A DNA stretch of 64,000 nucleotides from Tubulanus polymorphus (lineage: Eukaryota; Nemertea; Palaeonemertea; Tubulaniformes; Tubulanidae): contig NC_134026.1 in assembly GCF_964204645.1 (NCBI RefSeq), positions 22,524,650-22,588,649 on the forward strand. Reading direction: 5' to 3'. The translations under genes were made by a program, and so were the position numbers. This document shows, piece after piece, positions 6,901 through 46,151 of the stretch; the stretch's first letter is position 1; each line of letters opens with the position of its first letter. The notes beneath the pieces are model-generated. The model was given only the letters and a program-made list of their open reading frames with translations. It had not been told where the DNA came from and made no database searches.

Positions 6901-9900
6901 GACCAAAAGTCATACTTTTTTTCTAGTACATAATATCATAATCGATATTTATCGATAGATGTCGTTGGTTTGTTTTTTGGCCTTTTTTAAACTTTAATCC
7001 GAGTCAAATCAAATCAGCCATGATTTCTCATCATTCGCTAGGATCAAGTTTCATTATGCAAATGCTCACGCGAAAGCGATTTCTTTTTCATCGTTGTCCG
7101 TTGCTTTCATCTCAGATCGGTTAGTCAATACTAAACAGAAAACTGTGAAAGTTATCGTCATAACTATAATGAATAATAAATGATTTAAGAAGTGTCCTGA
7201 ATTTCACCATTCCGTTCTAAAAAACATGTTTAACATAAAGTATCCATAAACAAAAAATTCATCGGAAGGTATTTTATCTGGGATTGATGAAAAAACTAAC
7301 ATCATCACTAAACTGCAAATTTCAAAGCCTCTTACGGATTATCGTGATCGGGGCTGTATTTTTCTACTTTCGCCAACGCGTTTTAACAACGAATGTAATA
7401 ACGTGTAATTTTGAATTTCATTACTTTGAATTTCATTACTGGTTTTGTTTGAAAAAAATCGTTGCTAACAACAGTTCCCCCTTGGGGGTACTGGACGTAG
7501 TCTAGTGAAGCATATCTCCAGTTGTCACACTGGTAGGACATTATAGCATTAATTGTTTTGTTCCATTCGTCGCCATGGGAACCCATCAAGTGGTGCAATA
7601 TAGTTTCCTTTTGTTCACAGCTCGTTGACAAACATATATACATCATACTAACGGTGGATGTCGCTGTCACAAGCGAAAGCCAATGGTCCAGAACTATCGG
7701 AAAATTCTTGAGTTTGAAAAAACCCATAATTCTATATTTTTGTACTTGCAGGGTTGCCCCACGATGCCCTATTGACCAAGTCCATGTTGAAAGAGACAAG
7801 GTGTGTTATCAAAGGTTGTGTAGGATGTATCGTCAGTCCGTTCGTAATAGTTCATGATTATCATTAAAAATCATTAATTTCAGATATGCGTGGACAAAGC
7901 CTTTCAAAAGGAGACCGACAATCTTGCGGTACAATGCTCAAATCAATCACAAGGTTGCGAGTGGGAAGGATGTTTGAAGGACCTTGGGGTAAATTATGAT
8001 AGATTACGAAATATTGAATGCTTTTTTTGGAAGCTATTTGTAGCGCAAATTTCAATTTTTCAGGGACACGTCGAAGAATGTGGTTATTCAATGACGTCTT
8101 GTCCGAATCAATGCGGCGTCGACTTTCAGAAACGGTTTTTGGACAAACATATGGAAAGTGATTGTCCTAAGCGGCCGGTCGAATGTGATTTCTGCCAGCA
8201 GCCAATTTTATCCGGTGATGAAGTCGACCATCTAAACGAATGTCCTAATTTTCCCATACCGTGCCCGAATAACTGTGGCGTTAAGGATATTTTAAGAAGT
8301 GAAGTAAGAACGATTCTATTCAACACATACAAAACGCCATATGTCATTCATTATTATTCCATTTCGCTTAAGTTATATGTAATAAAATTTTCTTTCACTT
8401 AATGTCAAATATGCCTTTATTTTCTACAAGCAATGTTCAAAATTTATTCATTTTACGAAACGTTTTTGCAATTTCAGCTCGATAACCATACGAAAAATGC
8501 CTGTCCGTTGCAGAACATTGACTGTCCATTCGCTCCATTCGGTTGCGAGAAAAAGGTAAGCTTCATTACTGAGTTTGAAACAGCAACAATTCAATGAATT
8601 GAATTGAAATGCAATTTGGTTTGTGAATATGGTTAATTGTATAATTATAGTTTATTATTATGCATACTTATATTCTAGTGCCTCCGCCGTGAAATAGATG
8701 CCCACTTACAAACCACTACCCAAGATCATCTTACAACTGTCTGTAACGCTATGGTATCCCACAAAAGCATATTCGAAGAACAGGCACAAGTACTCGACGA
8801 ACATATTCAAAAAGTTGAAAAAATGGAGAAAAAGGTAACAATAACTTATCAGCTCACGGGAATAAAGTAGTTTCCAGTTTGTAGGCGCCATTTTGTGGCG
8901 GTCCCTCGAGGTCCCTATTGTTGTGATGATTTGCACTCATTTTCAACACATAAGTTTAGATTGAATATCATCCTTGCTGGATGAACTTAATTTATACACC
9001 ATTACACCATTTTAAAGGAAATGAAATGCAGATAATTGTTGGTGATTCTTGGATTTTTTGAACGCAACAATAACAGTGACGATGTGAAACCAAGGACTGC
9101 ATATCCTAACCGCGCGTAAAAGAAATCGCGATATTTATTAATTCTACACGGAGATTCATCGAAATATAAATATGCGGAAACAGCGAGTGACATTTCGTCT
9201 AGAAAAATTCTAAGAATGTTTGATTGCTTTTAAAAATAGGTGGACAAGCTTGAGAAAATGTACGGAGTCCAGTTTCTTTGGAGAATTGACAAATACGAGG
9301 AACGACTAGCAGATGCGAAATCCGGCAAGAAAACGACCATATTCAGTCCGCCATTTTATTCACATAGACACGGCTATAAGATGACAGTCTCGGTTTGTCT
9401 TTACGGCGACGGAAGAGGTAAAAACGGTTATACACATTTTTAACTGATCTTACAAATACCAAATCTAATGTTTATCTATATGTCTTTCGAACGAAAACTG
9501 TCAATATCTAAGTAATTTGCTAAATAACCCTGGACTTTCAGCTTTCAATGGGGTACACGTACAAATTTCATATCTGCCGTATTGCAGCTGTTTCCTTTGA
9601 ATAAGAACTTTCGAGCTACGAATAACTTTCAATAATTTCCGCACTTCAATCTCGTTAAAAGGCATGCCAATTAATGTACATCAATTTTCCTTTTTAAATC
9701 GTATAGCGCGCGGAAAGCACATGTCTTTGTTTGTGTGCATCATGCGAGGCGACTACGATCCGCTCCTGACTTGGCCATTTTCACACCGTATCACATTCAC
9801 GCTGATCGACCAGTGTCAGGACCCAGCCGCCAGACGTAACATCCAATACAGCATCAAACCGAACACGTGCAAGGAGAACCGGCCATTTCTCGGTCGGCCG

Positions 9901-18074: not shown

Positions 18075-20995
18075 ATGTCTGCATGGTTGAAAATTGGTGA
18101 CTTTTTTGTGCTTCCATGGTCCTGTTCTGGGTTAGAGTCTTCGATTGTTGTAGTAAGGGATCGGATGAGGATTTGTTTCGATATAGGCTACGCTCATCGG
18201 GAAACTGTCGAGGCTGAACATGTTTGCATAACGTATGTTGAAATAAATTCTGGAAACTATAAGCGGAGAGGGTTCAATAATGACTTATCTATTAAATGAA
18301 TTTAAACCTTCCTTCTACTGTATAGGTACATCTAATGTCTATTTCAACCTGACTTGAGAGCATTCCGGGTGGCCTAGCTCAGTCAGTCTTGGTAGTACTT
18401 ATGGAAGCCCTGAAACGACATTACGAATTACGTTTTACGAATTACATTTTAAGTTTTACAAATTACGAGTTACGTTTTACAAATTACGAGTTAGGTTAAC
18501 GATTTACCATATAAGCTCCCTGCATTTCGTATGTCGCGCGAGGTCAAGGTCTTATACAATTACGTTTTACGACTTACGTTTTCCATTGACTTATTGGCTA
18601 TTGCTTAAAAAGGTTTTTGGAAAAACACGGGCTTGCAATGAGTCGAATCATGACGAAGAATGAATCTGACTGAATTTATTTTGCATTTCGAAATATATAC
18701 ATGTATATTGTGAAATTGAGGGAGTTTCGTACGCATTTTTTATTACAAATAATAATAAGACCAAGGAAGTCAAAAAGTGACAATTTCAAATGATCAAAAG
18801 TATAGAGATTCAGCCTGCATACGCCCGGATTCATTAAATAATAAATTACAAACACTGACACTGTCCTGTTTGGCAAGGAAGGGCACAATGATTAAGACGA
18901 TACAAAATTGGAAATTATTCGGGGTTCATGGAAATAAAAAGAAATTGGACTCCATATCGGTGCAGATACAATTCTTCAATTGTAACAAATGATCATAACA
19001 AGTCTTAGCTTTTAATAATGAAAATATATATTTTTATTTGAAAGAAAAGCATTTGTCATCCATCATCGTTATTAGTTGAAGTATTCGGCAAAAAATTACA
19101 ATCGATTTCACCACAGTGCTGCCTTCTGCATGCTACCCAAAGTTTAATATTCACGACACGGAGAGTGCACCACAACCTTGACCTCTTGTGAAAAATTGAA
19201 CCGAAATGTAGTGGTAAATCATTGCCCAAAATAAGTCGTAAAACGTAACTCGTAAGACGTAATTCGTAAAACGTAATTCGTAATGTCGTTTCAGGGCTTC
19301 CATAGTCAGTCTTGGTAGTACATACCTGATAAAGGTCTTAATAGGACCAGAAAGGACTGGCAGTCGACCTAAATCATCATTTTTTCATCCATTTGAAACT
19401 GTATTGAAGGATATCCAAAAAGTCTTCACTGAAAGGGGTTAAATGAAGAGAAGTGACTCCATGATTTGAAAGTTTAACAATATGTTTCCATGCCTACGTA
19501 TCAAATTTCAGTTGGTAGGCATGGACACATATTGTTAAACTTTCTAATCAGGAGTCTCTTTTCTCTCAGGAACCCCCCTCAATGCAGATTTTTTGGATAT
19601 CCTTCAATACAGTTTCAAATGGATTAAAAAATGATGATTTAGGTCGACTGCCAATGCATTCTGGTCCTAATAAGACTTTTATCAGGTATGTACCACCAAA
19701 ACTGACTGAGCTAGGCCACTAGGAATGCTCTCAAGCCAGATTGAAATAGAGATTAGAAAGATATTTGTCTATTTTCGTTGTAGACATGGTCATATCGATC
19801 ATATAGCCGGTATTGCCCATCACACAGCTAAACGAGATTTGTATGGAATGTCGATGCCAACATATTACGCACCGAGTCATCTCGTTGATACTTTGAAAGA
19901 TGTCGGGAAAGTTTTTGGCAAGATGCAAGAGAGGTCTTCATCTATGAACAAGATGAATGTTCAAGGTATTGATTATGATGGAGAAGCAATACAGGTAGGC
20001 TATTAGACAATTGTATTTTCCCTGCTTAACAATATATCTAAGACATCTGGACCCAGTTCCACAGTTGTGAGTTAAGAGTTAACTCTGAGTTAAAGTTAGT
20101 TCATTTTCAATGTTTTAACCCAGGGTCAAATCTTAACTCGGAACTGTGGAACTGGACCCCGGACCCAGTTCCACAGTTGTGAGTTAAGAGTTAACTCTGA
20201 GTTAAAGTTAGTTCATTTTCAATGTTTTAACCCAGGGTCAAATCTTAACTCTGGAACTGTGGAACTGGACCCTGATGATAAGTTGAATTGAATAAAAAAA
20301 TGAAATGTTTTTCAAGACCGCGGACCTATTTTACTTCAATTAGATCATTCGTTGAATCATCTAAATCTTTCATCATCTTTTTCAGCTACCCTGGAATCGT
20401 AAATTAAAAGCCATTAAAACTGAGCATACGGTAAAAAGCCAAGGTTATATTATATATAAGGTCATTAGAACATTGAAACCCGCTTACATACATCTTAATC
20501 CACGTGAAATAGCAAGATTGCATAAAGAAGGACACGTAATACATGACATTATGGAAATTCCGGAAGTGGCTTACACAGGTGAGAACATCTATCTGATTGA
20601 ATCAATAACGAAATGAAATAAGATTCATGCAGGTGTGGCTTTGAATTGATTTTTCGCTTGTCGTTAACCTAGGGGATACTACTATCGCTGCCTTCCTGAA
20701 TCCATCTCAAAACCCGGATATCTTCAAAGTGAAACTGTTGATAACCGAAGCGACTTATATTGATTATATGGATAATGGAAGAAAAGTGAACATGGCTTAC
20801 GATCGTGGACATATGCATTTATGGCACATCGCAGAAAATGCCGAACTATTTAAGGATGTAGAAAACATTTTACTAGTACATTTCTCCGACAGATATGACA
20901 TTACATCTATACAGCAGTATGTTAATAGTTCAGTGCCACCATCATTGAGACATAAAGTTCATCTAGGACTTTGTAAAGGTGCTTTGCGCGAGTGA
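18075..20995 (+). CDS. Short-form tRNase Z (ribonuclease Z), plant TRZ1-like, metallo-beta-lactamase fold
   Basis: tRNase Z cuts the 3' trailer from precursor tRNAs. Coding exons 18075-18232, 19784-19994, 20386-20578 and 20673-20995 join in phase to give 294 residues. Exon 1 encodes the N-terminal strand region (SGLESSIVVVRDRMRICFDIG); exon 2 opens with the zinc motif HGHIDH (residues 54-59, HxHxDH). Later segments are KAIKTEHTVKSQGYIIY, PEVAYTGDTT (the GDTT metal-binding Asp motif), LLITEATYID, the GHMHLWHI histidine region and LLVHFSDRYD (the HFSxRY motif). Length, the absence of the long ELAC1 exosite loop and the PEVAxTGDTT block match the Arabidopsis TRZ1 class better than ELAC1 or ELAC2, as I recall those families. 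The exon 2 acceptor (19784) lies only about 30 bp past a foldback element that occupies most of intron 1. Selenoprotein M follows 670 bp downstream on the same strand. Confidence 0.88.
18332..19756. mobile_element. Palindromic MITE (copy A) interrupted by a second inverted-repeat element
   Basis: Terminal inverted repeats begin CTAATGTCTATTTCAACCTG at 18332 and end in its imperfect complement at 19756. The whole element folds back, with its centre near 19480-19530 where two copies of a CATGCCTAC motif face each other. Removing the nested insert (18399-19321) leaves about 502 bp, the size of copy B at 53556-54060. It has no coding capacity. It sits in intron 1 of the tRNase Z-like gene and ends 27 bp before the exon 2 boundary. 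Confidence 0.85.
18399..19303. mobile_element. Nested inverted-repeat element with TACGAATTACGTTTTACG arms and 18-bp flanking duplication
   Basis: The element has inverted ends TATGGAAGCCCTGAAACGAC (left from 18400; right reverse complement ending at 19303). Subterminal runs of degenerate ACGAATTACGTTTT units follow. It is inserted in MITE copy A. The 18 bp AGTCAGTCTTGGTAGTAC occurs immediately on both sides (18381-18398 and 19304-19321). A related fragment with the same TTACG-rich units lies near 46505-46645. Confidence 0.8.
20049..20272. repeat. Two tandem copies of a palindromic MITE (TIR GGACCCAGTTCCACAGTTGT)
   Basis: Two nearly identical 112-bp units (20049-20160 and 20161-20272) lie head to tail. 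Each starts with GGACCCAGTTCCACAG and ends with its complement, with internal TTAACTC / GAGTTAA inverted motifs. They lie in intron 2 of the tRNase Z-like gene. A third relative is at 62672-62764. Confidence 0.9.
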
Positions 20996-21666: not shown

Positions 21667-23546
21667 ATGAAGGCGCGTTGGTGGTTTGCTCGGTTTGCTA
21701 TTTTAGCGTTGTTTGTAGCAGCCGTAATTGCTCAAGAAGATGATGAAGATGACGATGGCCAAGTGCATAAAAAGTACGATGTCTCGGACAAAGTGATTGT
21801 ATCCGCAAGAGTAGAGGTAAGTAGGCCTAATAGACTAATTAGCGCGCAAATGTGTAGTGTTAAGTACCGAAATATAACATCTGATGAAATTACTAAAATT
21901 AGTAAATGCATTGTTAACAATTTTCTTCAGAGTTGCGACGGATGATTATTGAATAGCCTTCCTAAAGTGAAGGCTTTCATATTTGCTGATGTTCCTCGAT
22001 AGTATCCTTCTTATCATTTTTATTTTCTTTCCTTTCTATTGATATGATTTTTAGTTTTCACATTTTTCTATTCTATTCTATTCTTATCTACTATTATTAC
22101 CTCTCTATTGACCTGAAGTTTTTTTCAGGGGCCTATAGCATAGTTTGCCACACCCGAAATCTGAGCATATGTTTAGGAAAAGCGAACGATTTTGGGTGTG
22201 TCTTACATAAGCAAGAGGCCTCCGAAATCATTTTAGTTTCGCTGTTTAAGTGTTGGTTAAGATTTTCTATTTTACTACTTCTTTCAAAGCTTTCTTTTCT
22301 TTTGTCTATTTTTCTTTATATCTTTTTCTTTACATTTTCCTTGTATTTTTTGGTTTTATATTTTACCTGCATATACGATAGACTCTGCTTCCATTTGGGC
22401 ATGTATAACCCAGGACATTCTAAGTGACAATGGGTCATGATCACTGATTAATTAAGTAGAAAAACTTTCAATATTTGGTCTGGGGAATGTGTAAGGTAAT
22501 CGGCTCAGTGGCAAGCAGAATCTAGGGTAATGCTTCTTATGTTACAATTGGAATGCTTAGAATTCCCTTTTTTATATTCCAGAGCTGCGGAGGATGACGA
22601 CTGAATCGCCTTCCACAAGTGAAGGCATTCATTTATCAAGATATTGAACATTAGTATCCTTAGAATAGTAACCAGTCAAATTTGCTTTTTTCAAGTCAGG
22701 TGTTGGAAAAAGGAAAAATTACAGATAGTGGGTAATGGCATAGAATTCATCCTGCTCGCATGAATGAAAAGTCATTTACTCGACGTCATAAGCAATCACA
22801 TTATGATTAGGTCTATTAAGGAGCAAGATTGCACAGACACTCTGAAGTGATGTGGTTTGACAGATACAATGGAACCTCATTGTAATGACTGAGGACATAA
22901 TGATTTATCAGTTATAGCAAACATGGTTCGAATTTTGTCCCAGTCAGGGCAATTTTTTCATTTTCATACTAGATACCACACACTATCGGCTATGATGGAC
23001 ATATTTTATGGTCCCTGGGGTTCATTGTAATGTGGTTCCACTGTTTGATTAATTATCAAAAGAATGAAATTATATTGACCTGAACAAATTTTAGTTCAAA
23101 ATTGATTGATTTCCCATTCTTTTGAACAATTAACACCGTGCATGAAGCCCACTCATAATCTGAATCCGCATGTTTTGAAAATTGTATCCTACATTCATTT
23201 AACTCACGACTTTGACTGTAAATGGATTGCGGTAGTAAAACCCTTGACAATTTTTCTAGCGAAAATGTTCAGTTCAAAACAGTTCCAGGTCTCGATCCTG
23301 TCATCTTTTTCTTGAATAAAGCAGGGGATAAAGTTGAGGTACGTTTTTTTATTAAGTCGCTTTTGATATGTTGATTAGCCACCTCACTTAAAAGCGATCA
23401 TTAAATGTAAACTTGTTATTGCTGTATTTCAGCGAGTCCTGTTGGCCGAGAAGAAAAGAGAAGAGTGTAATAAAGCACTGACGGATAAAGGCTTTAAAAT
23501 GACCAAACCTGAAGTACCATATGAGGAAGATAAAGAAGAGCTTTAA
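21667..23546 (+). CDS. SELENOM: Selenoprotein M, with two alternative selenocysteine exons
   Basis: Selenoprotein M is a thioredoxin-fold ER-lumen oxidoreductase with a CxxU redox motif. Exons: 21667-21816, then either 21931-22001 (2a) or 22583-22653 (2b), then 23260-23338 and 23433-23546. Using one exon 2 gives 137 residues, close to the vertebrate length of about 145. Residues 1-22 are a signal peptide (WWFARFAILALFVAAVIAQ), followed by an acidic stretch. With 2b the redox site reads SCGGU, where U is the TGA at residue 55, followed by RLNRLPQVKAFIYQDIEHY, matching the family's CGGU-x-LNxLxxVKAF block. The C-terminus KEEL is a KDEL-type ER retention signal. A SECIS element must lie in the 3' UTR, but I could not identify it by eye. 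The TGA is a recoded Sec codon rather than a lesion: splice sites, frame and sequence on both sides are intact, and conserved sequence continues after it. Confidence 0.9.
21931..22001 (+). other. SELENOM: Selenoprotein M alternative exon 2a (CDGU form)
   Basis: A 71-nt exon after a TTTTCTTCAG acceptor and before a GTATCC donor. It encodes SCDGU LLNSLPKVKAFIFADVPR plus two bases (TA) of a Tyr codon. Its phase and length equal exon 2b, and about 15 of 24 residues match. The TGA sits at the same codon. The active-site motif is CDGU instead of CGGU. Confidence 0.85.
22583..22653 (+). other. SELENOM: Selenoprotein M alternative exon 2b (CGGU form)
   Basis: A 71-nt exon after a TATATTCCAG acceptor and before a GTATCC donor, encoding SCGGU RLNRLPQVKAFIYQDIEH plus TA. 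It matches the canonical selenoprotein M redox motif. If 2a and 2b were both included, the joined TA+A would make a TAA stop at once, so the two are expected to be mutually exclusive. Confidence 0.88.
22868..23042. repeat. Short inverted-repeat (MITE-like) element in selenoprotein M intron
   Basis: The left end reads CAATGGAACCTCATTGTAATGA and the right end is its imperfect reverse complement (TTCATTGTAATGTGGTTCCACTG), about 175 bp in total. No coding potential. Boundaries are approximate. Confidence 0.6.
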
Positions 23547-26500
23547 AATCATTTCGTTTTAGTTTTAGTGCTCAATCATCATTTATATGTATACGTATTC
23601 AATTTTTCTTACCTTTACGCATTGTATTTGAATCATATAACTAATTAATATACCTCAAACCCTATACTGTTTTCTACATCGCAAAAACTGCTCTACGATA
23701 TTGTAGAGATTTATGTGTTTAATTTAACCTTAAAATGATTGAAGTGTTAATTTAGTGCGTGTAACCAGATGAATTTTTTCCATTTTATACACGATAAAAC
23801 GTGCTTTTGCGATATACCAATACTTGATCTGGATCTTGCTGATACCTATAGTGAGGTTTCTTTTTTCTAAATGGATTGCTCATTATCGAATGAGGAATTT
23901 GTTGGTCACAACTCAAGATAGACTGGAAGTCAGCACGCGTACCGCAGTATGGGTTTGGTTTAACCCTAATATGCGGTACTCTAGCTTCAGTATATATCTC
24001 ATTCTACGTGTCAAACACTTAGATTGAGAGTGGTCTGAGATCCGTGCTCTATTGTGCTAAAAAATCGTTAGCAAGCACAGCTGGTTATTTTAGCTGGATC
24101 CATCACCGAATAAGATCGTGTACACTGACATGTATATCACAGCTGGTGCTGGAAGACAATGAAACTGTATGTCAGTAAATTCATATCCTGCAATATACTA
24201 ATTATACTATTTTTTAACACCTGTTATCATTCAACACGTCATCCTTAAATCAATACACATCTTAATACACATAAATTTGCAGTTAAACAGGCCAGTTTTA
24301 ACTTTAAACAAGAAGGTAATTCAACTAAATCAGTGGAGTTAACCCAGAAAAATTAAGTTAAAACTGGCCATCATTTCAGCGACTAGGTACAAGTCAATAC
24401 TTGAACACTAATATGTTTATCATATAGAAATTGTTTGCTCACCAAACATGTATTTACTGATCAAGTCCGTATTCTTATCCCGGAATGTTTCTCTTCCATC
24501 ATCCTAGTGGAATGTGTTAGTGGTTATCTCAATTGTATGGTTCATTTATGATGGGTAGATGGTGGCATTGTTGAGAAAATCCTCTCCGACTTTAACTAAG
24601 TTTAATGCATCGTTGTCAATGATTAATTGAAAGCTGATTGTATGATTTTGTTCATCGAAATATTGCAAAATATGATGGACATTTGATGAAAATTAATAGC
24701 AGCCGTTCAGTTATCTTTACAATAATGATCAATTGCTTTGTATTAGATCGCACGACTTGGATTTTACAAGCCATAAATTTATTTTTTTGGTTAATCATCT
24801 TATGATCTCACCATTTCCTGTACTCTATCTATCATCAAGTCTAACTACTATCAATGACTTTTGAAGTCATGGCAATTATGTTATATGCAAGAAGATTTTC
24901 GATTGAATGAATAAATTCTTATGAAAATTATATTTCAGTTATCTTGGTTAATCTTTACTTCCATTGTACTCCACAGTGCATTCCAAAAGTTACTTCAACA
25001 TTTGACTCCCCTTGATGGGGAGAACAAAAAGCTGGGTACCCTAATTCAATGTATTATAAGGAGATGTGTTATATGAGAATGCTGACAATTATCAAATATC
25101 ACGACCATGAATTGAAACTTTTATGCACATATAACCATGAGGACTGATGAGACTAAGATGGCTGCCGATTGACTGATCATGGCATTCTGATATGTTAAAG
25201 CATAGAACTACAATGGAAGGGAAGGCCTTTCGTTATAGTTCTATGGTTAAAGGTTCCTTCCCAATATATACCCATCACAAATTTCGATGAATAGTAATCT
25301 ACAGGTCTTAGAATTCAAGCCAAAAATTACCTTTTTGGACTCAAAAAAGGAGGTCACAGGACAATCGTCTTGTGTCAAGTAAATCCAAATGTGATGATGG
25401 GCCCGGGGGGGGGATACATATACATACGGAACATCAAGAAAATTGATCGGGCATCTTCAAAATTTCAAACATAGTCGGGCATCTTGCATCCGATTGGCGC
25501 AGTTTTGGGCTGTAGAAGTAGTATCTAGGGTAGATAACGTAGAAACCAAATCAAGACAATTCATTGAAGCGTCTTCAAAACTTCCCAAAATAACTGGATT
25601 GTTCCCTTTTTGTCCACCTGTCGTTCCATAGTCCATAGATGGACGAAAAATGAACGCAATAGCCTGCTGAGACTAGGCCAAAGTGGGCTAAAATGGAATT
25701 GTATTCTACTCATTGATCATGTTAATTTATGTATCAATAATACAGCGTATTTTATCAGATCCTCATATATCTCCAGACATGCCCGATTCTAGTTACTTTT
25801 GAGACTGCATGGTTATCGTTTCATTATTCAACAAAAATAAGATGAATCCTAAATTTGCAGCACTTTCTATTTAGGGAAAATGTCCACATGAGGAAAATCC
25901 TTGAGAAGTCAACAAGAATGGCTAAAAGATTTTATGAAATGCTGGAATTCCAATTTATTAATTTTCTTCATAAAATTAACTTATTGAAACATTTTATTCA
26001 TCTCCTTTTCGTGAATATTATCACCATCAAGCATCTACGTTATCAGTGAACTGTACATCATTGTATTATTATCCACACGGTAAACATGCTCTTTGTTTTA
26101 CTTTTAAATATAATAATAACATACAAAGAATGTAGTGATGAGAGAGCAATTGCTAATGACATAACAAATTTTGTAAATTCACACATTGATAAACATACAT
26201 CGTGTACGAACCCTACCTATTTTTGCAACATTTTTCAATTAAGCATGAATTTAATTTCACATTTTATTAAATAGGGTCATATTATGTACAATACTTTTTA
26301 ATAGTAGTTAGCAAATTTCCATGCATTTGCATTTATCGATTTATATAAGACCAAGCATCTATGAAGAAAGCATCGCCATTGCATGGGCCACTGCTGTTAA
26401 CTACACGGTTTCCGATTCCATCCTGGATGAACATGTACACATCATACTTTAACTCGCACAAAGAGAATCAGTGGTGCCAGTTGGTGTAGCTTTAAGGTCT

Positions 26501-27516
26501 AGATATTCAACATTTTATTATTTAACTAAAGCCTAAGTTGCCAAACGAGGCTACTGCGTGCCAGGCTGCGTGCACCTGATTTTCTAGTTAGGCTTAACAA
26601 AAAATTCTAGGTTCGTTGTTCGGGACGTTGATATCCTTTCGTACATTGTTCATATTAAATGTTAAGCGTTCAATCATTTCCAAGGAAAACTAACTTACAA
26701 ACCATGTTTATTACTACAACGTATTCAAAATATTTTCACTTCACCATTAGATTACGAAAAATGCTGTATTCATGTAGATATACATGTATATTGTATTACT
26801 TAAAGCACCACAATGCTAACACCATTCAATTGGCATTTGCAATATAATGAGATGTCGTAAGATCAATCAGAACACATGTTCTAAGTCAGCCACAAAGAAA
26901 CACTCACACTGCATTGTAAAAGCAGAACCTTTTACATTTCTACATTCGTTATCAAGATGTTTGTCATGTATATGAATTCAAGTTACGAGAGCGTGGAGAC
27001 AGAAATGTAACTACAGAAATGTAACTTGCTGAGGGTTTTAGCCGTACGTGACAAGAAATCTTACAACAGATTCGATTGAGAATAAGGTTAAAATATACTT
27101 GTACCACTGAATATCAAGCAATGTAAGTTTCGTTTACATCCATGATGACGCCAATACACGCATGCTTAGGGCGAGAGAACACTGCTGCTAGTTATATTGT
27201 TTATTCATTTCATTGATATTATGATATTGGTAATAATAATGTTAGAAGTGTTGTGGCGCAGACATGTCAAAGGTACAAAAAATCTCGATGATGATTGTTA
27301 CAAAGGCCTGATAGTTCTGGAGATGGTAAGATAGATAGTAAATTGATGATACAGACAGAGATGATAAGAAAATCATAATAATCATATCGAGTTCAGAAAC
27401 AAAACAAATTTCTCAGAAATCTCTGCACAAAATAATGTCATTATTATTAACAATACACAAGCTCAAAACACCTTGTTTTTTGTACACAGTACGTTACGAT
27501 AATTTGATGAATTTCA
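23547..27516. other. Convergent intergenic region, 4 kb, long 3' UTRs and repeats
   Basis: AT-rich DNA between the 3' ends of selenoprotein M (+) and RAD23 (-). An AATAAA near 24908 could end a long selenoprotein M 3' UTR; a TTTATT near 27200 could serve RAD23. A 15-bp inverted-repeat element lies at 24290-24369, a stem TGCTAA/TTAGCA around 24051-24070, and a G-run near 25402-25412. A segment at about 25443-25680 resembles 29280-29460. No gene was recognised, and the required SECIS was not found by eye. Confidence 0.5.
24290..24369. repeat. 80-bp inverted-repeat element (GGCCAGTTTTAACTT ends)
   Basis: Perfect 15-bp terminal inverted repeats at 24290-24304 and 24355-24369 flank 50 bp with GAGTTAACCC. 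The design resembles the GTTCCACAG palindromic family at 20049-20272, but the ends differ. Confidence 0.75.
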
Positions 27517-30500
27517 TCAGCTCCTCTCTTCAAAGTTGCCATCGTCTTGCAGGATAAAATTTATCGCCAATTCTTCGTTCTTGTCGCATGCGAAATATGC
27601 CTGGATACAAACATCTTCCGGAAATCCCAAACTAACCATCTAAAATCGCGGAATGAAAAACATGACAAAACAATGTTTCAAAAAAATGTTTATTTTTAGG
27701 ACATTTTTATGTTTACACATAGATCTGTAAGGGACGAAATATGTGTCAAATCCTAATAATTATACGCCTTGCACTGAAATAATAGAGTCAACAGTACTTT
27801 TTTTTCAAGTTTATAAAATTTTCATTGAAATGTAATGTGTACTGACCATTAAACTTTTCAGTAACACAGCTATTTTTGGATTTTTTGGATAAGGTTCCCA
27901 ATAACTAATTACATTACAGTTTCAAACACCCGAATTGAAATACACAGTATTGATTACTCACGCGATCAATGGCAGCTTTTTCGGTCGGAGTAACTTGAAT
28001 CGTTTCAAAACCAGGCGCGGGAGGTGCAGCTTCAGACATGTCGGCTGGTATGCTAGCGCTGTCCGCATTCAACATTTCAATAAACTGTTCTTGATTCTGG
28101 GTGATTAACTGCAAAAATACAAACATATACATGTATACCAAATCTCAGCTCAAATTTACACAATGAATTGAATTGATAAAATGGCAATGAAGATGATATT
28201 AAGCATCACGGATATTTTGCTGTTTTTGAATTATTTGACGGGAGAAACAAACAGAAACTCACTTGTAATAACTCGGGATTCGATTGGCCGATACTTTGAA
28301 GGAGCATTGGTAAATTTTCTGGGTTAGATTGAACCATTCTTCTCATCGTCTGAAACTGGGGTAGATTTAGTAAGAAACCAAGCTGACCCATACCTGTAAT
28401 AGGAAAAATAAAAGCATTTACATTGTAATCAGAAGTTAAGCAAACGAACCAGAGTAAAAACTATTGATAATTGATACTCTAGCAGAATTTTGTGAACCTA
28501 ACCCCACAACACAAGGATTTTGTCAAGGATTCCAGGGACACCATACCAACTTGGAAGGTGGTTTGAAATGACCTTGACATTCACCACAGTAATAGACCAT
28601 GTCATAATTTACGGAATTGAATCACGAATCACACCACCTCAACAGAAAGGAGGTTTCGGACTCTCCAAAAGGTCACGTGACCAATGATATAGCACAATTG
28701 GAGGCCAACGGATTCCTCAATTCGATAAAAAGTACAATCGTCCAATTTTCCATGAAATATTCGATAAAGGACCATGGATCCAGTAGGATCAAATGAGTAC
28801 GGTTTACTTTTGAGCAGAAAAATCGAATTGTTATGGGATTTGCAATACGTATAAAGATGAAATCTTGGTAAACATCAACACTAGTAAGCAGGTTCAACTA
28901 TGATGATATATACATGCTCATGTAAAACCGGTAGGTTTGACTCACTAGCATGTGGCTAAACAATCAATGCAATATTTGTTCAATATACATTGAACTTGGA
29001 TATTGAAGGGCTCTCCCAGTGACATCAAGCACCGATTAGTAGAATGGGGAAAAATTCATTGAAATTTTGCTCATTTTCTCCCAATACTTCCGAATGGCAA
29101 ACAGCTGACAGACGAAAATTTCCATTCTAATTCTAACACCGAATTCCCTCCTGACCACAAAATATCAGCTTTGTATATCCAGTGACTACAATATGTGTGA
29201 CGAAGAGCTAACAGAAAGTTACTCTCAGAACCATTCTATAAGGATAAACACTGTTGATCCAAAAAAAGAATATGCTAGAGTGTTGATATTGCCGATCCAA
29301 ATTGAGCGCAATTTGGCCGTCTTGATTTTGATCTGGGCTACAGATGCATCTAGGGTAATACATATAAACCAAATATCTAGACCATATATCAAAGTGCAAT
29401 GAAAACTTCCCAAAGAAACTAGATCCTGTCCACAGAAGGACGAACAAAACAATAGCTAATAAATAAAATCAAGCCATTGATTTGAAATGGTTACCTCCGC
29501 CTCCTCCACCTTGTGCAGCTGCAGGTGTACTTGCAGCAGCTGGTGTACTGGAAGGTTGAGATGATGCCCGTTGACTGCCAGTGGCTGGTGCTGCGGCAGC
29601 CGGGGGTTGCCCCGCTTCCGGTGCGGCAACAGGTACAGCTGGAGCTTCAGGTGCAACAGTTGGTATATTTCCCTAGAAAAATCATATAATCCATTTTACA
29701 CTGATTATATTGAGTGAATATTAGGAAATCAGTACGTAACTGTACTTACCATACACAGATATTCGACTGCTCGGTCAGGATTATTAAAACTAGCTCTCAA
29801 CGCCCGTACCACCAATTCTCGTTGGAATCCCATGCTCATTATTTCTGTAACAGTATTCTCGTATGCGCTTCCAGTCACTAGTGCACTCTCCGCATTGACT
29901 ATTTCACCAGTATCACTACCAGCCACTTCATCAGTTGTGCTGTAGAAAAAATGCGAATCTCATTAAAGACCAATAATAACATATAGGCAGTGAACATCTG
30001 CAACCTAGTAACTCACCACACTCAAGTCTGCTAACTTCGTAGCTCATAAATTTGTATATTCATTAATCATTTTTATCTTTAAATTACCTTTCACTTTCTG
30101 TTTATTTTCCCTGGTCAACTCACAACTTAATTCATAATAATCATTTGTATTGTAACTTAATTCCTTATAGTATTTTTAAGTTGACGATCTCTAGCACTTC
30201 ATAACAGTGAGTCATACAACAATATTGATATATTGATTATTTGTAGTGTACACAACACCAGTCATCATTCTCTTGTGACCTGTATTGTCTAGAGATGTAT
30301 GTTACACGCACTTTTAACTGTTTGAAACCAAATACTTCGATTTCAAGAAAAAATATTTGATTCTGGATCCGGGAAGCAGTCAATGCACTATAGGGTAAAA
30401 GAATTAGCAAAACTTTGCAGTCACATATCTTGTATTAATTCGTATGAAAATTGCTACAAATTAAAAGGAATTGACTTTACTATTTGTAATAACAAAAACA

Positions 30501-32448
30501 ATTTACCTTAGAAACAACTAAAACATTTCTACATGATTACTGCACTGGCCTGCCGTATTAAAACTATCCTAATAATACAATTTTCTTACATTGCAGATGC
30601 AGCTGTACCAGTCGCACCGGTAGCCGAGGCTGGCTTATCTTCTTCTTTTGCTTCCGTTTCCATCGGGTCATCTTTTTTCGGTTCAGGCTGACTCGCAGCA
30701 GGAGTTTCAGCGGCAGGTTGCGGAGCCGCTGCTGCAGCTGGGGCAGTAGATGTCGATTCCATACTCTCTGCTGCAGGCTTGGGCGTCGCTTTCGGCTAGA
30801 ATGAATCAACATACTTTATTCAAAACAATTTTTCCGTGAAAATTCCTAAACAACAGAGTACTACGTAGTTGCTTAGTTTATGTTAGATATAAGTTTTGAC
30901 TACCAGATAGGCAGATATGAATTGAGAAATGAATACTAGCAAGTATTGTTCAAAAACCTATGGTATAGTAAGATTAATCAGGCTTTTCCTGGCTTTACTT
31001 CAAATTCCATGATTTACCTGGCCAGAGCTACAAAATATTCATTTCAGGCTTTTTTGGATCGCTATTAACATTTCAGGTTCTATAAATCCCAGCCGAGGAT
31101 GAGCAATGGAAGCAGTAAATGATCTCAAGGATAAAAGAACTAATCAGGGGTGGTTTTATGGACCGCGTGCTAGGATTAAGTCGTCTATAGATAATCATTC
31201 TCTGTGGCTACTATACAGTACATGAAATCGCTCAATCAATATGAACTACGTATGAATTGATATTTCCATTTCTTCCCATTTACCTTTGCCACCATTACAA
31301 CAATGAAGTTCTTTTCATCAATTTTGTATTCCGATATGATTTTGTCATCTTCAAGAATTCGACCTACAAAAAATACCCTGTACATTACATTTTTTAAAAT
31401 CATGATCAAGCTAACAATGACAGACCCGGCAGCTTTAGAAATGAACTGATAACAAATTTTAATGCAGGTTACAAAATTACCTGGCTGATTAGAGAAGAAA
31501 CAATGTGGGCCCCTATTATTTAATTTTTGCTTATCATCTCAAAGGTCTAAGAACCCCTGCATCAGTTTTGACCCAAGAGACATTTCATTCAAACTGAAAT
31601 TGTTTCAAAAAGCATGGATCAAGGGAATCTATTAGGTACCAAACCAAAAAAGAAACGTACCAGCATAGATCAACTTTTGACCGCCAACAGGAAAATCATT
31701 TCCACGCTCAGATGCGATTTTCTCTTTCAAATCTTTGACCTAGAAATAATACAATGTAATAATATCATTAAAGCAAACACCAGGTATAAAATGTTACGCA
31801 ATTTCAGGTTAGGCCTAAGGCATGTAATGATGCTTTTTCTGATTGGATAGCGATTCATTCTGCTCAGGAGGTTAAAGTTGAAGGGAGTAAATTTCTTAGA
31901 AGGCTTAATTAAAAACTAGTTGGCATGCTTTGATGCGATTTTTAGTGCGACATTTCCACTTTTGACTTTTTACACAAAGGCTCAATCAATTTACAAACAA
32001 GTTAGGAATTAGGGGCCTATCTTAGTGTCATCCGTCTCACCTTGCGCTTTAAGGTACGGACACTAACTCAGAAAAATTTTGATTTTGGTCCCAACCGGGG
32101 CACTTAAACTATAATAACAGGGACAGATTTTCAAATTTGGATCATTTTATCAAATCGACTATTCCATAAATTTTCTGTACTAAAATTGGGTACGTTCATT
32201 GGATTAGACCAGCAAAATCTCTAAAAATATATGATCAGCACTATTATAAGACGGGGAATTTGCCCTGCCTCCCCATTACGGGCACATGTGTAGTGGCGAT
32301 TGGCGATTCCCAATTTTCAAATATGCCTGGTTAGTGGTGAATTGCAAAATTCGAGATGTCTCCCCACCACACCGCCGCATACCTTCGCCGTCTCTTCTAT
32401 TTCAATTTTGAACGTCTTCTGTTGAAGGGTTTTCAGTGTGATGAGCAT
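27517..32448 (-). CDS. RAD23: UV excision repair protein RAD23 homologue
   Basis: RAD23 delivers ubiquitinated cargo to the proteasome and stabilises XPC in nucleotide excision repair. Coding exons on the minus strand: 32383-32448, 31661-31739, 31284-31363, 30590-30795, 29750-29939, 29495-29672, 28263-28393, 27962-28108 and 27517-27639. All phases agree and give 399 residues (human RAD23B 409, RAD23A 363). Domains in order: ubiquitin-like 1-75 ([43 protein letters not shown]); an Ala/Pro/Thr-rich linker; UBA1 about 166-206 ([30 protein letters not shown]); a second Ala/Pro/Gln linker; XPC-binding/STI1-like about 270-325 ([29 protein letters not shown]); and UBA2 about 347-393 ([33 protein letters not shown]). 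The order UBL-UBA-STI1-UBA is diagnostic. The start ATG matches the family N-terminus. Confidence 0.95.
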
Positions 32449-33071
32449 ATTGTCGTTTTGTTGCTCAATTAAAAACGATCGAAATGGGTTCAGCTCGCGG
32501 CACCGCTTACAGAATAGAGCAATTTACATTAATTTATCACTCGAAAATTCGAGCCGACTTGGCCGTCCTACGATCGCCGCCATTAAATGTGACGTCATCA
32601 TCGAAGCGGGTTCGAATCCCACCATAATCCTAGGCGACTACGAAGCGTCAGTGACGCGGGAACTTTTGAAATTTACTAATTTCTGTGAACAGCTAAAAAT
32701 CGCAGAAAAGGGCATAGAATTTCACTTGATGTAAAAGAAATTTGGACTGTGTGAAAATGAATCTAGCTTTCTATGGCACAGGAAATAAATCTTACCAGAG
32801 GCCTACAAAATTCATTTTCCAAGACTGAGCATCACGAAATGTTAATTATATTCCTGCCGATTCATGTTTCATGATTCCACCTCTATAGTAGCCTTCTGGT
32901 GACATTATATCAATAATTAACTCGGGGAAAAAAGATTTATTTATTTCAAAATATTTATTGAATTTTTATTTTCAGATCATAGCACAAAAATTAAAATAAA
33001 CACCACCGGTTAATTATTTACAAATAAAACGATTTAACTGTGCGTCCTTTCGTTGCGCAGTAGGCCTACGT
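32449..33071. other. Spacer between RAD23 and linker histone genes
   Basis: About 620 bp holding the RAD23 promoter and 5' UTR and the linker histone 3' UTR. TTTATT motifs (minus-strand poly-A signals) occur around 32936-32958. A T-arm-like GGGTTCGAATCCC lies near 32610 but no complete tRNA can be folded around it. Confidence 0.5.
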
Positions 33072-33959
33072 TCATTTCTTCGCCCTTGCTGCTTTAGCCT
33101 TCTGTAAAAGAAAATCGATTAACGTTATTTTGCAAATTGGCATAATACATTAATAGGGCTATTATAGCTGAAAATTGCTCACTGACCGCTTTCGATGGCG
33201 TCTTCTTGGGACTTCTCTTTGTTCCTCGTTTCGCTGCCGTTGTCTTAGAATCCGCTTTTTTGGTTTTAGTAGTTTTACTTTTACCGTCGGCGGCAGCTTT
33301 ATTGGCCGTTTTCTTCGTACCGGTAGCCTTCGTCGGGGTGGCTATCTTTTTTGTTGTTTTTGCTTTAGTTGCTTTTACTGTAGCTTTCACCGTGACCTTC
33401 TTTGCTATTGGTTTCTTACCGGATCCCTCTTCATCGTTCTTCGGTTTCGGCGATTTTTTAGCTTTGGCTTCTTTCGTAATCTTTACCACTTGTTTCTTCT
33501 TAGCTGCAATCGATTTCGGTTTCGGTTTGCTGGCTACTTTTTCCTGTTTTGCTAATTCCGCCTTCACAATTTTGATCCTTCCGCTTAAACTAGTAGGATT
33601 GTCTGCCTGGGTTTTAGGCCGGGAAAGTACGCCACTTTCAAGACCTGAAAAAAAGACAATTGTTCAATTCATTACAAATATATCATATGTTTCAATAATG
33701 TCCCACTAACATAAACAATATCAAATTCAAACCATTTACCTTTGGTTAAGGCTCTCTTAATACGGTGTTTTACGAAGGAGGGATCAATACCATGTTGTTT
33801 GACCAGGTAATCTTTAATGAAATTCACTGATGCTCCCTTCGGATCGTCATTATGCCGGATGGCTTCGATCATCATTTTCAGCGTATCCGGACCGCTAGAA
33901 CGCTTCGGTTTCGGTGGAGATGCATGGACACTTTTTTCAGAATCACTTGAGTCACCCAT
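33072..33959 (-). CDS. Linker histone H1, oocyte/embryonic-type-like
   Basis: Linker histones bind nucleosome entry/exit DNA. Coding exons on the minus strand: 33740-33959, 33187-33644 and 33072-33101, in phase, 235 residues. Residues 24-100 form an H15 globular domain (TLKMMIEAIRHNDDPKGASV, NFIKDYLVKQ, FVKHRIKRALTKGLESGVLS). It continues into SLSGRIKIVKA and a Lys/Ala/Thr-rich tail with repeated KATKAKTTKK-like blocks. The block ALTKGLESGVLSRP is closer to the H1.8/H1oo/B4 oocyte class than to somatic H1, which has LVSKGxLVQTKG there. Replication-type H1 genes normally lack introns; two introns and downstream TTTATT signals suggest a polyadenylated, replication-independent transcript. The donor of the middle exon (GTCAGT) is unusual but acceptable. 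The gene is head-to-head with the MAM/LDLa gene, 975 bp between starts. Confidence 0.87.
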
Positions 33960-34933
33960 GATCACAGGTCTAAATACACTATGAATTTTAGCGAGCGAAG
34001 TCTGATCTATTACTCCTATATAGATCGTTGAACCACCGGTTTAAATAGTCCATGTATCCGCAACGAGCCGTGACATGTTTGACCGAATGTCATGTGATTA
34101 CTAAACGGTTTCGATACGAAACTCTAGTTGGCCCTCGCGGTGTGTTTTTTTCTTATCAAAATGCTGTCAAAATACGAAATACGTGCGCGTTTAAAATTCT
34201 ACGAATAAATTTGACATATTTTTTCATAATGGAATTGTATGATTGAGTGAAATAATTCGGGTAGATTATTTCCAGTCTTCGGCATTGCGCAGTTTTGTCG
34301 ACAGAAGTCCATCCAGAAATTGCTTCGTGAATTGGAAAATCGTGGCTTTATCATTTTTGCAGTCAAGTATGCTCACGAAGTTTCAGAATTCACAACCACA
34401 AACCGAAATCTAGATGCTTTCCCAAAAATCTTGATAGAGTCCATCGAAAATATGGGATTAGGTTGGCTTTGAAGAATCGGAACGAGCACACCTGTATCGA
34501 CGAACGATGTTTTCATTTTACTACGAAATAAATAAATTAGGAAGGGTGTATCGAACGAACAAAAGCAATGAAAAATGATTTCCAATAATATACTATCATA
34601 ATCAGATCGCAGACTAAAAATACGCGCACGATACGTTATGGCATCGCGGGGTGTCGGAATGAGTCTCGATGTATTGACAAAGTTGCTGCGAGTCATTAAC
34701 GTTAGACTATTATATCGACACAAGGCTCATATGTAAAACGCTCATTTGCCATAGAAATTGATCAGAATACATATCAACAGTTATATCACCGTTTCAATGA
34801 AGCTTCACAATTTTACAACAACCACGTTGATCATTATTTTCGATTGGGAATCATGAAAATCTCCATGGCCACGGGTGTTGTCACTTCAAGTGATAATTTC
34901 ACATGGTGGATCGTTGGTTGAGTAAATACGGTT
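33960..34933. other. Divergent promoter region between linker histone and MAM/LDLa genes
   Basis: About 970 bp of AT-rich sequence between two divergent start codons, expected to contain both promoters. I see no repeat, RNA gene or coding exon. The minus-strand open frame around 34373-34723 shows nothing recognisable. Confidence 0.5.
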
Positions 34934-45100: not shown

Positions 45101-46151
45101 GTAGAAGGTATCTAGAGAGTGAGAAATTGGATTGTTGATACAGAATATTTACAATATTTTGAATATATTACAAATTATCATTTTAGGGCACTTTTGGCCG
45201 ATATCGAAAGGCATTATCAAGATCCTACAAAACCGTATCCAAAAGAAGACAATCCCCTTATGTATGAGTTGACTTCATACTTGGAAAATGCTGGTATTAC
45301 GAAACCACTGACCAAGATTTACATCACTACTGAGAAAATGCCATACCTCGCCATCTTCCTGTTCATGCTAGTCATTTCGCAACTGCCAAAACTAGTCTAT
45401 ATGAAGACAGTAGGTAAGAGTCGATACACAAATTTCAAATGATACAAGTGGTACTGGTAAACCATTTGACCTATGTGTCCGCTATAGCTATGAATAAAAG
45501 CATGTTGCAGTCTGTATGCATACGTATGGTATTATTTTTAGGGAGCATGGTGTGTAAGAAGCCAGCAGAGCCGCTGGATGGTCCCCCATTTGTTGTAGGA
45601 GTGCTGACTCTACTGCGTCAATTCCATCCAGAGAACACAACGCAGTTCATTTCCTTATTAGGACAATTTGTACGATCACATGTGGAAACTTGTCAAAGCG
45701 CTAAAACTCCCGAACTTCCCCAGGACGTCGTCAACGCTTTAGTTTTCATCGACGATTTTATCTACTACAGTGGAACTTCGAAAAAGGTCAGTAGTAACAT
45801 ATAATTTTTTGTGAAATCAATAATACCAGCGTTTTGACACAAATAACGAGAGAAATCCCACAATAAATTCAGCTAAAGACTATTAGCCATCATCGTACGG
45901 ATGATGGCTAATAGTCTTTAGCCGAAACGTTGCGCAATATATATATATATACTCTTCTATTCAAGTTTCACGTTTTGACTGAATTTATTGTGGGATTTCT
46001 CTCGTTATCATCTTACACGGATATTGTGTATCTTCTCGACTTGACACAAATATTTTCCAATTTTATTTTTGTTCATATTTTGTTTCAGATGGTTGAAAGT
46101 CACATTCCTAGTTACATTATGGACCAATTCAAAGCACTGAATGCTCAGTAA
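39131..46151 (+). CDS. WASHC5: WASH complex subunit 5 (strumpellin)
   Basis: Strumpellin is a core subunit of the WASH complex, which activates Arp2/3 on endosomes. 25 coding exons join in phase: 39131-39352, 39432-39623, 39820-39920, 40008-40127, 40361-40586, 40787-40900, 41175-41352, 41445-41569, 41649-41778, 41973-42085, 42221-42387, 42523-42598, 42690-42809, 42903-43034, 43181-43261, 43339-43440, 43657-43836, 43970-44097, 44208-44298, 44430-44604, 44801-44880, 44962-45065, 45187-45413, 45542-45786 and 46089-46151. The total is 1163 residues; the human protein is 1159. It is recognisable end to end, for example [19 protein letters not shown] at the start, then [93 protein letters not shown] and [13 protein letters not shown], with a short last exon ending LNAQ. 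No frame break is seen. The last intron carries a hairpin-containing insertion (45846-46040). Confidence 0.97.
45846..46040. mobile_element. 195-bp inverted-repeat insertion with 12-bp flanking duplication and hammerhead-like core
   Basis: The 12 bp TTGACACAAATA occurs at 45834-45845 and again at 46041-46052, bracketing the insert. Inside, ACGAGAGAAATCCCACAATA (left) is the complement of the segment ending near 46006. The centre is a nearly perfect palindrome around CGTACG. On the plus strand it reads GGATGATGGCTAA, loop, TTAGCCGAAACG, close to the CUGAUGA-stem-GAAAC core of hammerhead ribozymes. It lies in the last intron of WASHC5. Penelope-like elements are known to carry such motifs, but assignment to them is inference. 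Confidence 0.65.

Follow-up and report, generated by a model that had tools for sequence, protein, structure and literature searches.

A tandem pair of selenocysteine exons in a nemertean selenoprotein M gene, predicted to be mutually exclusive through U2/U12 splice-site incompatibility

The selenoprotein M (SelM) gene of Tubulanus polymorphus lies in the window analyzed here, by which we mean the whole stretch of DNA under study (64 kb), and contains an active-site exon that appears to have been duplicated in tandem. The two copies, exons 2a and 2b, are probably alternatives that are kept mutually exclusive by the incompatibility of U2-type and U12-type splice sites; both the splicing pattern and the insertion of selenocysteine (Sec) are predicted from the sequence. 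It is also likely, with somewhat less confidence, that this one gene makes two selenoenzymes with the active-site motifs CGGU and CDGU from one SECIS, their exclusivity being hard-wired by the same U2/U12 incompatibility. The initial annotation of this DNA had proposed that one or the other exon is used; the exon anatomy, the family match, and the constraint on both copies support this reading better than any other. The argument for alternative use is drawn from the exons and their splice sites, and is independent of the SECIS controls described below.

Gene structure and family identity

The coding parts of the gene are as follows.

21667–21816, + strand: SelM exon 1, coding part; translation gives 50 codons with the start codon, ending in phase 0
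21931–22001, + strand: exon 2a; 71 nt, CAG before and GT after; peptide SCDGU-LLNSLPKVKAFIFADVPR
22583–22653, + strand: exon 2b; 71 nt, CAG before and GT after; peptide SCGGU-RLNRLPQVKAFIYQDIEH, a canonical-looking SelM active site
23260–23338, + strand: exon 3, common to both isoforms; its first base, C, completes a Tyr codon (TAC)
23433–23546, + strand: exon 4, common to both isoforms; ends with the stop codon TAA

Because exon 1 ends in phase 0, either exon 2 contributes 23 codons plus TA, and the Sec TGA is codon 5 in both (21943–21945 in 2a and 22595–22597 in 2b). Exons 2a and 2b are homologous, lie in tandem between common exons, and agree in length and phase. Two such 71-nt exons with intact AG and GT borders had been annotated, in the same phase and with a TGA at the same codon; the coordinates were exact and were reproduced base by base. 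The exons are identical at 50 of 71 bases with zero indels. Their peptides have 14 of 23 residues in common when Sec is counted; including the junction Tyr makes it 15 of 24, in agreement with the CDGU and CGGU motifs and the approximately 15 of 24 common residues reported initially.

Joining exon 1, either exon 2, exon 3, and exon 4 gives 138 codons including the final stop. The protein has 137 residues, and one TGA lies within its frame. The sequence is VESCGGU-RLNRLPQVKAFIYQDIEHY in isoform 2b and VESCDGU-LLNSLPKVKAFIFADVPRY in isoform 2a. The N-terminus encoded by exon 1 resembles a signal peptide, as judged by eye. The two remaining joinings do not give a complete protein: 2a joined to 2b ends in ...DVPR followed by a TAA stop at the junction, which reproduces the immediate TA+A stop described in the initial annotation, and exon 1 joined to exon 3 is frameshifted and stops after 19 codons.

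Assignment of the gene to SelM, as originally proposed, was supported by matches of both isoforms to the Pfam family Sep15_SelM (PF08806) and to mouse SelM. The Pfam scores were 78.9 bits for isoform 2b and 67.8 bits for isoform 2a against a cut-off of 26, and the E-values of the two full isoforms were 2.9e-22 and 8.4e-19. For each isoform the best solved structure was mouse SelM, 2a2p (3.8e-18 for 2b, 7e-15 for 2a), followed in both cases by Sep15, 2a4h. The redox domain of mouse SelM aligns with both isoforms, and isoform 2b has the C-G-G-U, the LNRL, and the VKAF region. The in-frame TGA lies at the conserved position of a CxxU motif, and CGGU (2b) and CDGU (2a) both align to the CGGC of 2a2p; the CDGU given by the second Sec exon is a difference from known SelM.

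The genome searched comprises 267.8 Mb in 77 contigs, the window being part of contig C2 (31.9 Mb). Of three matches in a genome-wide search for the Sep15_SelM family (E<=10), two were exons of this locus, 2b at 23.1 bits and 3 at 15.3 bits, which as single exons are below the cut-off; the third was a locus on contig C7 (71.5 bits), which is over the cut-off and whose sequence we read as Sep15-like. Exon 2a, unlike 2b, was absent from this list of matches at E<=10. In the same search of 14 control genomes, a match was found in one (Bacillus subtilis), and it was below the cut-off. The SelM gene is probably single-copy, as judged by a family search that works exon by exon. When the peptides of both exons were compared to the 64-kb window with tblastn, only 2a and 2b were found at E below 0.1, and a third copy of the exon within the window was ruled out. 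The DNA of each exon, compared to the 267.8-Mb genome at E<=0.001, matched only itself, and a near-identical copy elsewhere in the genome was likewise ruled out; diverged copies could escape these DNA searches, because even the sister exon was not returned. A protein database search with isoform 2b covered 66 candidates and found none at E<=10.

The genes near SelM are animal-like, with Pfam matches to strumpellin, a TRAF-type zinc finger, and linker histone. Directly upstream of SelM are exons of a metallo-beta-lactamase-fold protein (19710–20995, +), for which Pfam gave a weak match (0.005) to the first stretch and none to the second; the protein presumably resembles tRNase Z. Exons of strumpellin (WASHC5) on the + strand match PF10266 at 45116–45439 and 45418–45801, and open frames farther upstream, from 38987 on, seem to belong to it as well. 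The linker histone match (PF00538) is at 33675–34040 (−), and an adjoining lysine-rich open frame at 33094–33663 may, by eye, be the histone tail. RING-type and TRAF-type zinc finger matches at 2232–2573 and 7878–8399 (+) may be exons that belong to a single TRAF-like gene. A 21-base sequence (ATATCCTTCAATACAGTTTCA) occurs identically at 19597 and 53904 (+), with TTTTTGG before both, and is probably a dispersed repeat; its start resembles a U12 AT donor by chance. The sequence TAGGCCTA is present nine times in the 64 kb compared to approximately 0.7 expected from the 36% GC content. Motifs like it are common in echinoderm and hemichordate DNA.

Similarity and constraint of exons 2a and 2b

Local alignment of the two exons scored 50, whereas the highest score among 300 shuffles was 21; the similarity between them is not due to chance. 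For the introns flanking 2a and 2b, the observed score was reached by 122, 233, 209, and 81 of 300 shuffles in the four comparisons. A gapped alignment of the two exons with short flanks added nothing further.

The proportions of nonsynonymous and synonymous differences between 2a and 2b (NG86, with the TGA codon left out) were 0.26 and 0.52, respectively, giving a dN/dS of 0.35 that rests on 22 codons and 15.3 synonymous sites. Neutral evolution was simulated 20,000 times with all 21 changes placed on a copy of 2b, that is, on the 2a side. Frame and TGA were retained in 15.6% of the simulations, and only 0.45% retained the frame, the TGA, and the Cys with nine or fewer residue changes. Of the 14 residues common to 2b and mouse SelM, 11 are kept in 2a, compared to three of the nine other residues (one-sided Fisher p 0.04). 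Over the 23 residues, 2b matches mouse SelM at 14 and 2a at 11, and no residue is common to 2a and mouse SelM yet absent from 2b. By these comparisons 2b is the more conservative copy and 2a the more diverged one. Both copies are judged from sequence to be under constraint, and 2a does not look dead, because its frame, TGA, and splice sites persist while the flanking introns have lost their similarity.

Splice-site classes and the proposed exclusive use of the two exons

The splice sites on which the proposed exclusion depends are listed here.

After 21816, + strand: exon 1 donor, GAG/GTAAGT; strong U2-type, outscoring 0.999 of the 3524 GT sites on the + strand
22002–22009, + strand: exon 2a U12-type 5' splice site, TA/GTATCCTT; 8/8 to the consensus
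22654–22661, + strand: exon 2b U12-type 5' splice site, TA/GTATCCTT; 8/8 to the consensus
After 23338, + strand: exon 3 donor, GAG/GTACGT; U2-type
23241–23248, + strand: U12-type branch point, CCCTTGAC; 7/8 to TCCTTRAY, with the A at 23247
22002–22582, + strand: hybrid interval between 2a and 2b, with a U12-type donor and a U2-like acceptor; predicted to be unspliceable as one intron

The excerpted text of PMC10853781 gives RTATCCTT and TCCTTRAY as the consensus U12-type donor and branch point, argues that AG at −2/−1 is incompatible with U12 splicing, and states that both spliceosomes act on some introns. In the 64-kb window, with both strands counted, GTATCCTT occurs twice, exactly at the donors of 2a and 2b, and both of these are preceded by TA rather than AG at −2/−1. 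Ranked as U2 donors among the 3524 GT sites by a simple weight matrix, for which U2 donor frequencies were taken from general knowledge, the 2a and 2b donors fell at the 48th and 33rd percentiles and those of exons 1 and 3 at 99.9 and 99.0. The sequence [CT]CCTTRAC occurs at two places on the + strand of the window (17528 and 23241) and three on the − strand, and the one at 23241 is just before exon 3; exact TCCTTRAC was found zero times on the + strand. The branch-point A at 23247 and the final base of the intron before exon 3 are 12 nt apart. By eye, the acceptors of both exon 2 copies have CAG and stretches rich in pyrimidines, and lack a full U12 branch point; TTGTTAAC at the 2a acceptor partially resembles one, and we read it as U2-type. 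The exon-2 acceptors thus look U2-type. The minor spliceosome is present in the host genome, as judged from U6atac, for which three loci were over the cut-off (96.5, 93.5, and 40.5 bits) compared to none in 14 control genomes. The U6atac loci are on contigs C8 and C6; two are strong, and the weak one (40.5 bits) is possibly a divergent or decaying copy.

In the mechanism that we propose, tandem duplication of the SelM active-site exon would have taken along its U2-type acceptor and its U12-type donor. The resulting order of sites would be U2 donor (exon 1), U2 acceptor of 2a, U12 donor of 2a, U2 acceptor of 2b, U12 donor of 2b, and U12 branch point and acceptor (exon 3). The major spliceosome could then join exon 1 to either 2a or 2b, and only the minor spliceosome could join 2a or 2b to exon 3. 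Because the exon-2 donors are U12-type and the exon-2 acceptors look U2-type, 2a–2b joining and 1–3 skipping would be blocked; each would pair a U2 site with a U12 site and is not expected to splice. Any 2a–2b or 1–3 products that leaked through would stop early, making the reading frame a second barrier. Spliceosome class would forbid the wrong products without choosing between 2a and 2b, because each isoform needs one U2 and one U12 event. Each mature mRNA would contain one Sec-UGA and the common SECIS, and would encode the redox protein in either its CGGU or its CDGU form. Docking and selector RNA pairing between introns was rejected as the exclusion device, the best duplex of each intron pair being matched or beaten by four, six, and five of six shuffles. 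Steric exclusion appears unlikely: 2a and 2b are 581 nt apart, far over the donor-to-branch-point criterion of <50 bp given in the excerpt of PMC5740500.

The same exons could be read in other ways. If exon 2a were a relic, never or almost never spliced in and slowly decaying, the gene would make the CGGU form only, and the greater divergence of 2a and the change of its motif to CDGU would be expected. It retains, however, the frame, the TGA, the Cys, the acceptor, and the full 8-base U12 donor between introns that have no detectable similarity. Without selection, a relic would also need a duplication that ended almost exactly at the splice sites, and the dN/dS and the rarity of equally conserved neutral simulations given above speak against it; we consider a relic improbable. 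Less probable still, and in our view very unlikely, is a role for 2a as a switch-off exon whose TGA is read mainly as a stop, lowering SelM output with no second enzyme made. Any Sec exon becomes a premature stop when Sec insertion fails, and the codon after the TGA does differ (TTA in 2a, CGA in 2b), but the residues past the TGA (VKAFI and D) are kept as in an exon that is read, five of the 14 changed codons are synonymous, and the same 3' UTR would be common to both mRNAs.

Another view accepts that the exons are alternatives and attributes exclusion to frameshift and nonsense-mediated decay alone, with the GTATCCTT donors used by the major spliceosome. Double inclusion gives TA+A and skipping shifts the frame, as this view predicts, and the excerpted text of PMC10853781 describes three introns with GTATCCTT donors that were reclassified as U2-type. 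Each of those was preceded by AG, which both exon-2 donors here lack; moreover, these donors are at background level as U2 sites, they match the U12 consensus in full, and a U12-like branch point lies 12 nt from the intron end at exon 3. We regard use of these donors by the major spliceosome as doubtful, about as much so as the relic, and favor exclusion by U2/U12 incompatibility. The initial annotation had assigned the enforcing role to the TA+A stop; that stop does arise at the junction, but it is probably a second safeguard to the U2/U12 incompatibility.

Selenocysteine decoding and relation to known systems

The initial annotation had implied a SECIS without locating one. Candidate elements for Sec insertion downstream of the SelM stop codon were judged by the layout rules for SECIS elements, and the preferred one consists of the following.

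24633–24636 and 24700–24703, + strand: lower helix arms of the candidate SECIS, GCUG and CAGC
24642–24686, + strand: candidate SECIS core, with AUGA, 12 nt, AA, a small apical helix, and UGA
24910–24915, + strand: first AATAAA or ATTAAA past the stop codon, lying 224 nt downstream of the candidate core

This candidate lies approximately 1.1 kb past the stop codon, and on its layout and position we rate it a plausible to likely SECIS. Its 3' arm pairs up to nine bases with the 5' arm (G-U counted) and is followed by the UGA. Plain folding drew the lower arms, the helix, and the apical helix (AUAUU-GCAA-AAUAU), with part of the AUGA core paired and a z of −1.5. In a loose scan of the 9.5 kb downstream (23547–33000) it was the sole candidate; applied to 11 control stretches of equal length, the same scan gave 26 candidates, and in six of these stretches the top score equaled or exceeded that of 24642–24686. 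A tighter descriptor, defined once the candidate was known, fitted two places in the window (both strands), one of them the candidate itself, and 30 of 2000 shuffled 3' UTRs. An earlier scan had missed 24642–24686 and gave only 23851–23927 (−12.5, compared to −7.4 and none in two controls). In our judgement 24642–24686 is to be preferred over 23851–23927 on layout, having AUGA rather than GUGA, 12 nt to the AA, and one small apical helix. The Rfam search reported no SECIS, and a tRNA scan of the 64-kb window found zero genes.

We know of no alternative exon in the JNK genes that carries a recoded stop codon, and these genes, which encode kinases, are unrelated to SelM. The JNK genes, which also have mutually exclusive splice sites, are similar in the arrangement of these sites, as the excerpt of PMC3584512 describes a hybrid intron with a U12-type 5' site and a U2-type 3' site, flanked by an upstream U2 and a downstream U12 intron. 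Human clusters of mutually exclusive exons, as described in the excerpt of PMC5740500, also consist of tandem homologous exons in the same phase with a length often not divisible by three; U2/U12 incompatibility is given there for five of 629 clusters (0.79%), and that excerpt does not mention a selenocysteine exon. Among selenoproteins, the excerpted text of PMC3473315 presents amphioxus 3NSelP, in which Sec-containing exons are duplicated within one gene to give three repeated Sec-bearing domains; in contrast to 2a and 2b, these repeats are parts of one protein and not alternatives. The same excerpt tabulates one SelM in four of six invertebrate genomes, with no mention of an alternative Sec exon. 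Among the matches listed from the open-access literature, with most subscription papers falling outside it, there was no earlier report of a selenoprotein with mutually exclusive Sec exons. That limited search is in line with the remark in the initial annotation that no selenoprotein with duplicated alternative Sec exons had been described. SelM, mutually exclusive exons, and U2/U12 incompatibility are each known; as far as was searched, no earlier case combines them on a recoded active-site exon.

Similar cases may go unnoticed in other genomes, because annotation can fail twice, by reading the TGA as a stop and by missing the U12 donors. Since Sec needs special decoding, the retention of two Sec exons suggests that each version of the active site is of value. 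Between the two exons, the residue beside the catalytic Cys changes from G to D, and the stretch past the Sec changes as well, with the remaining protein identical. The function of SelM is poorly understood, and the pair offers a comparison ready for its study. If the proposed use of 2a and 2b is true, it would extend the rare exclusion by U2/U12 incompatibility to a recoded gene, and splicing would be a natural way of tuning the chemistry around Sec.
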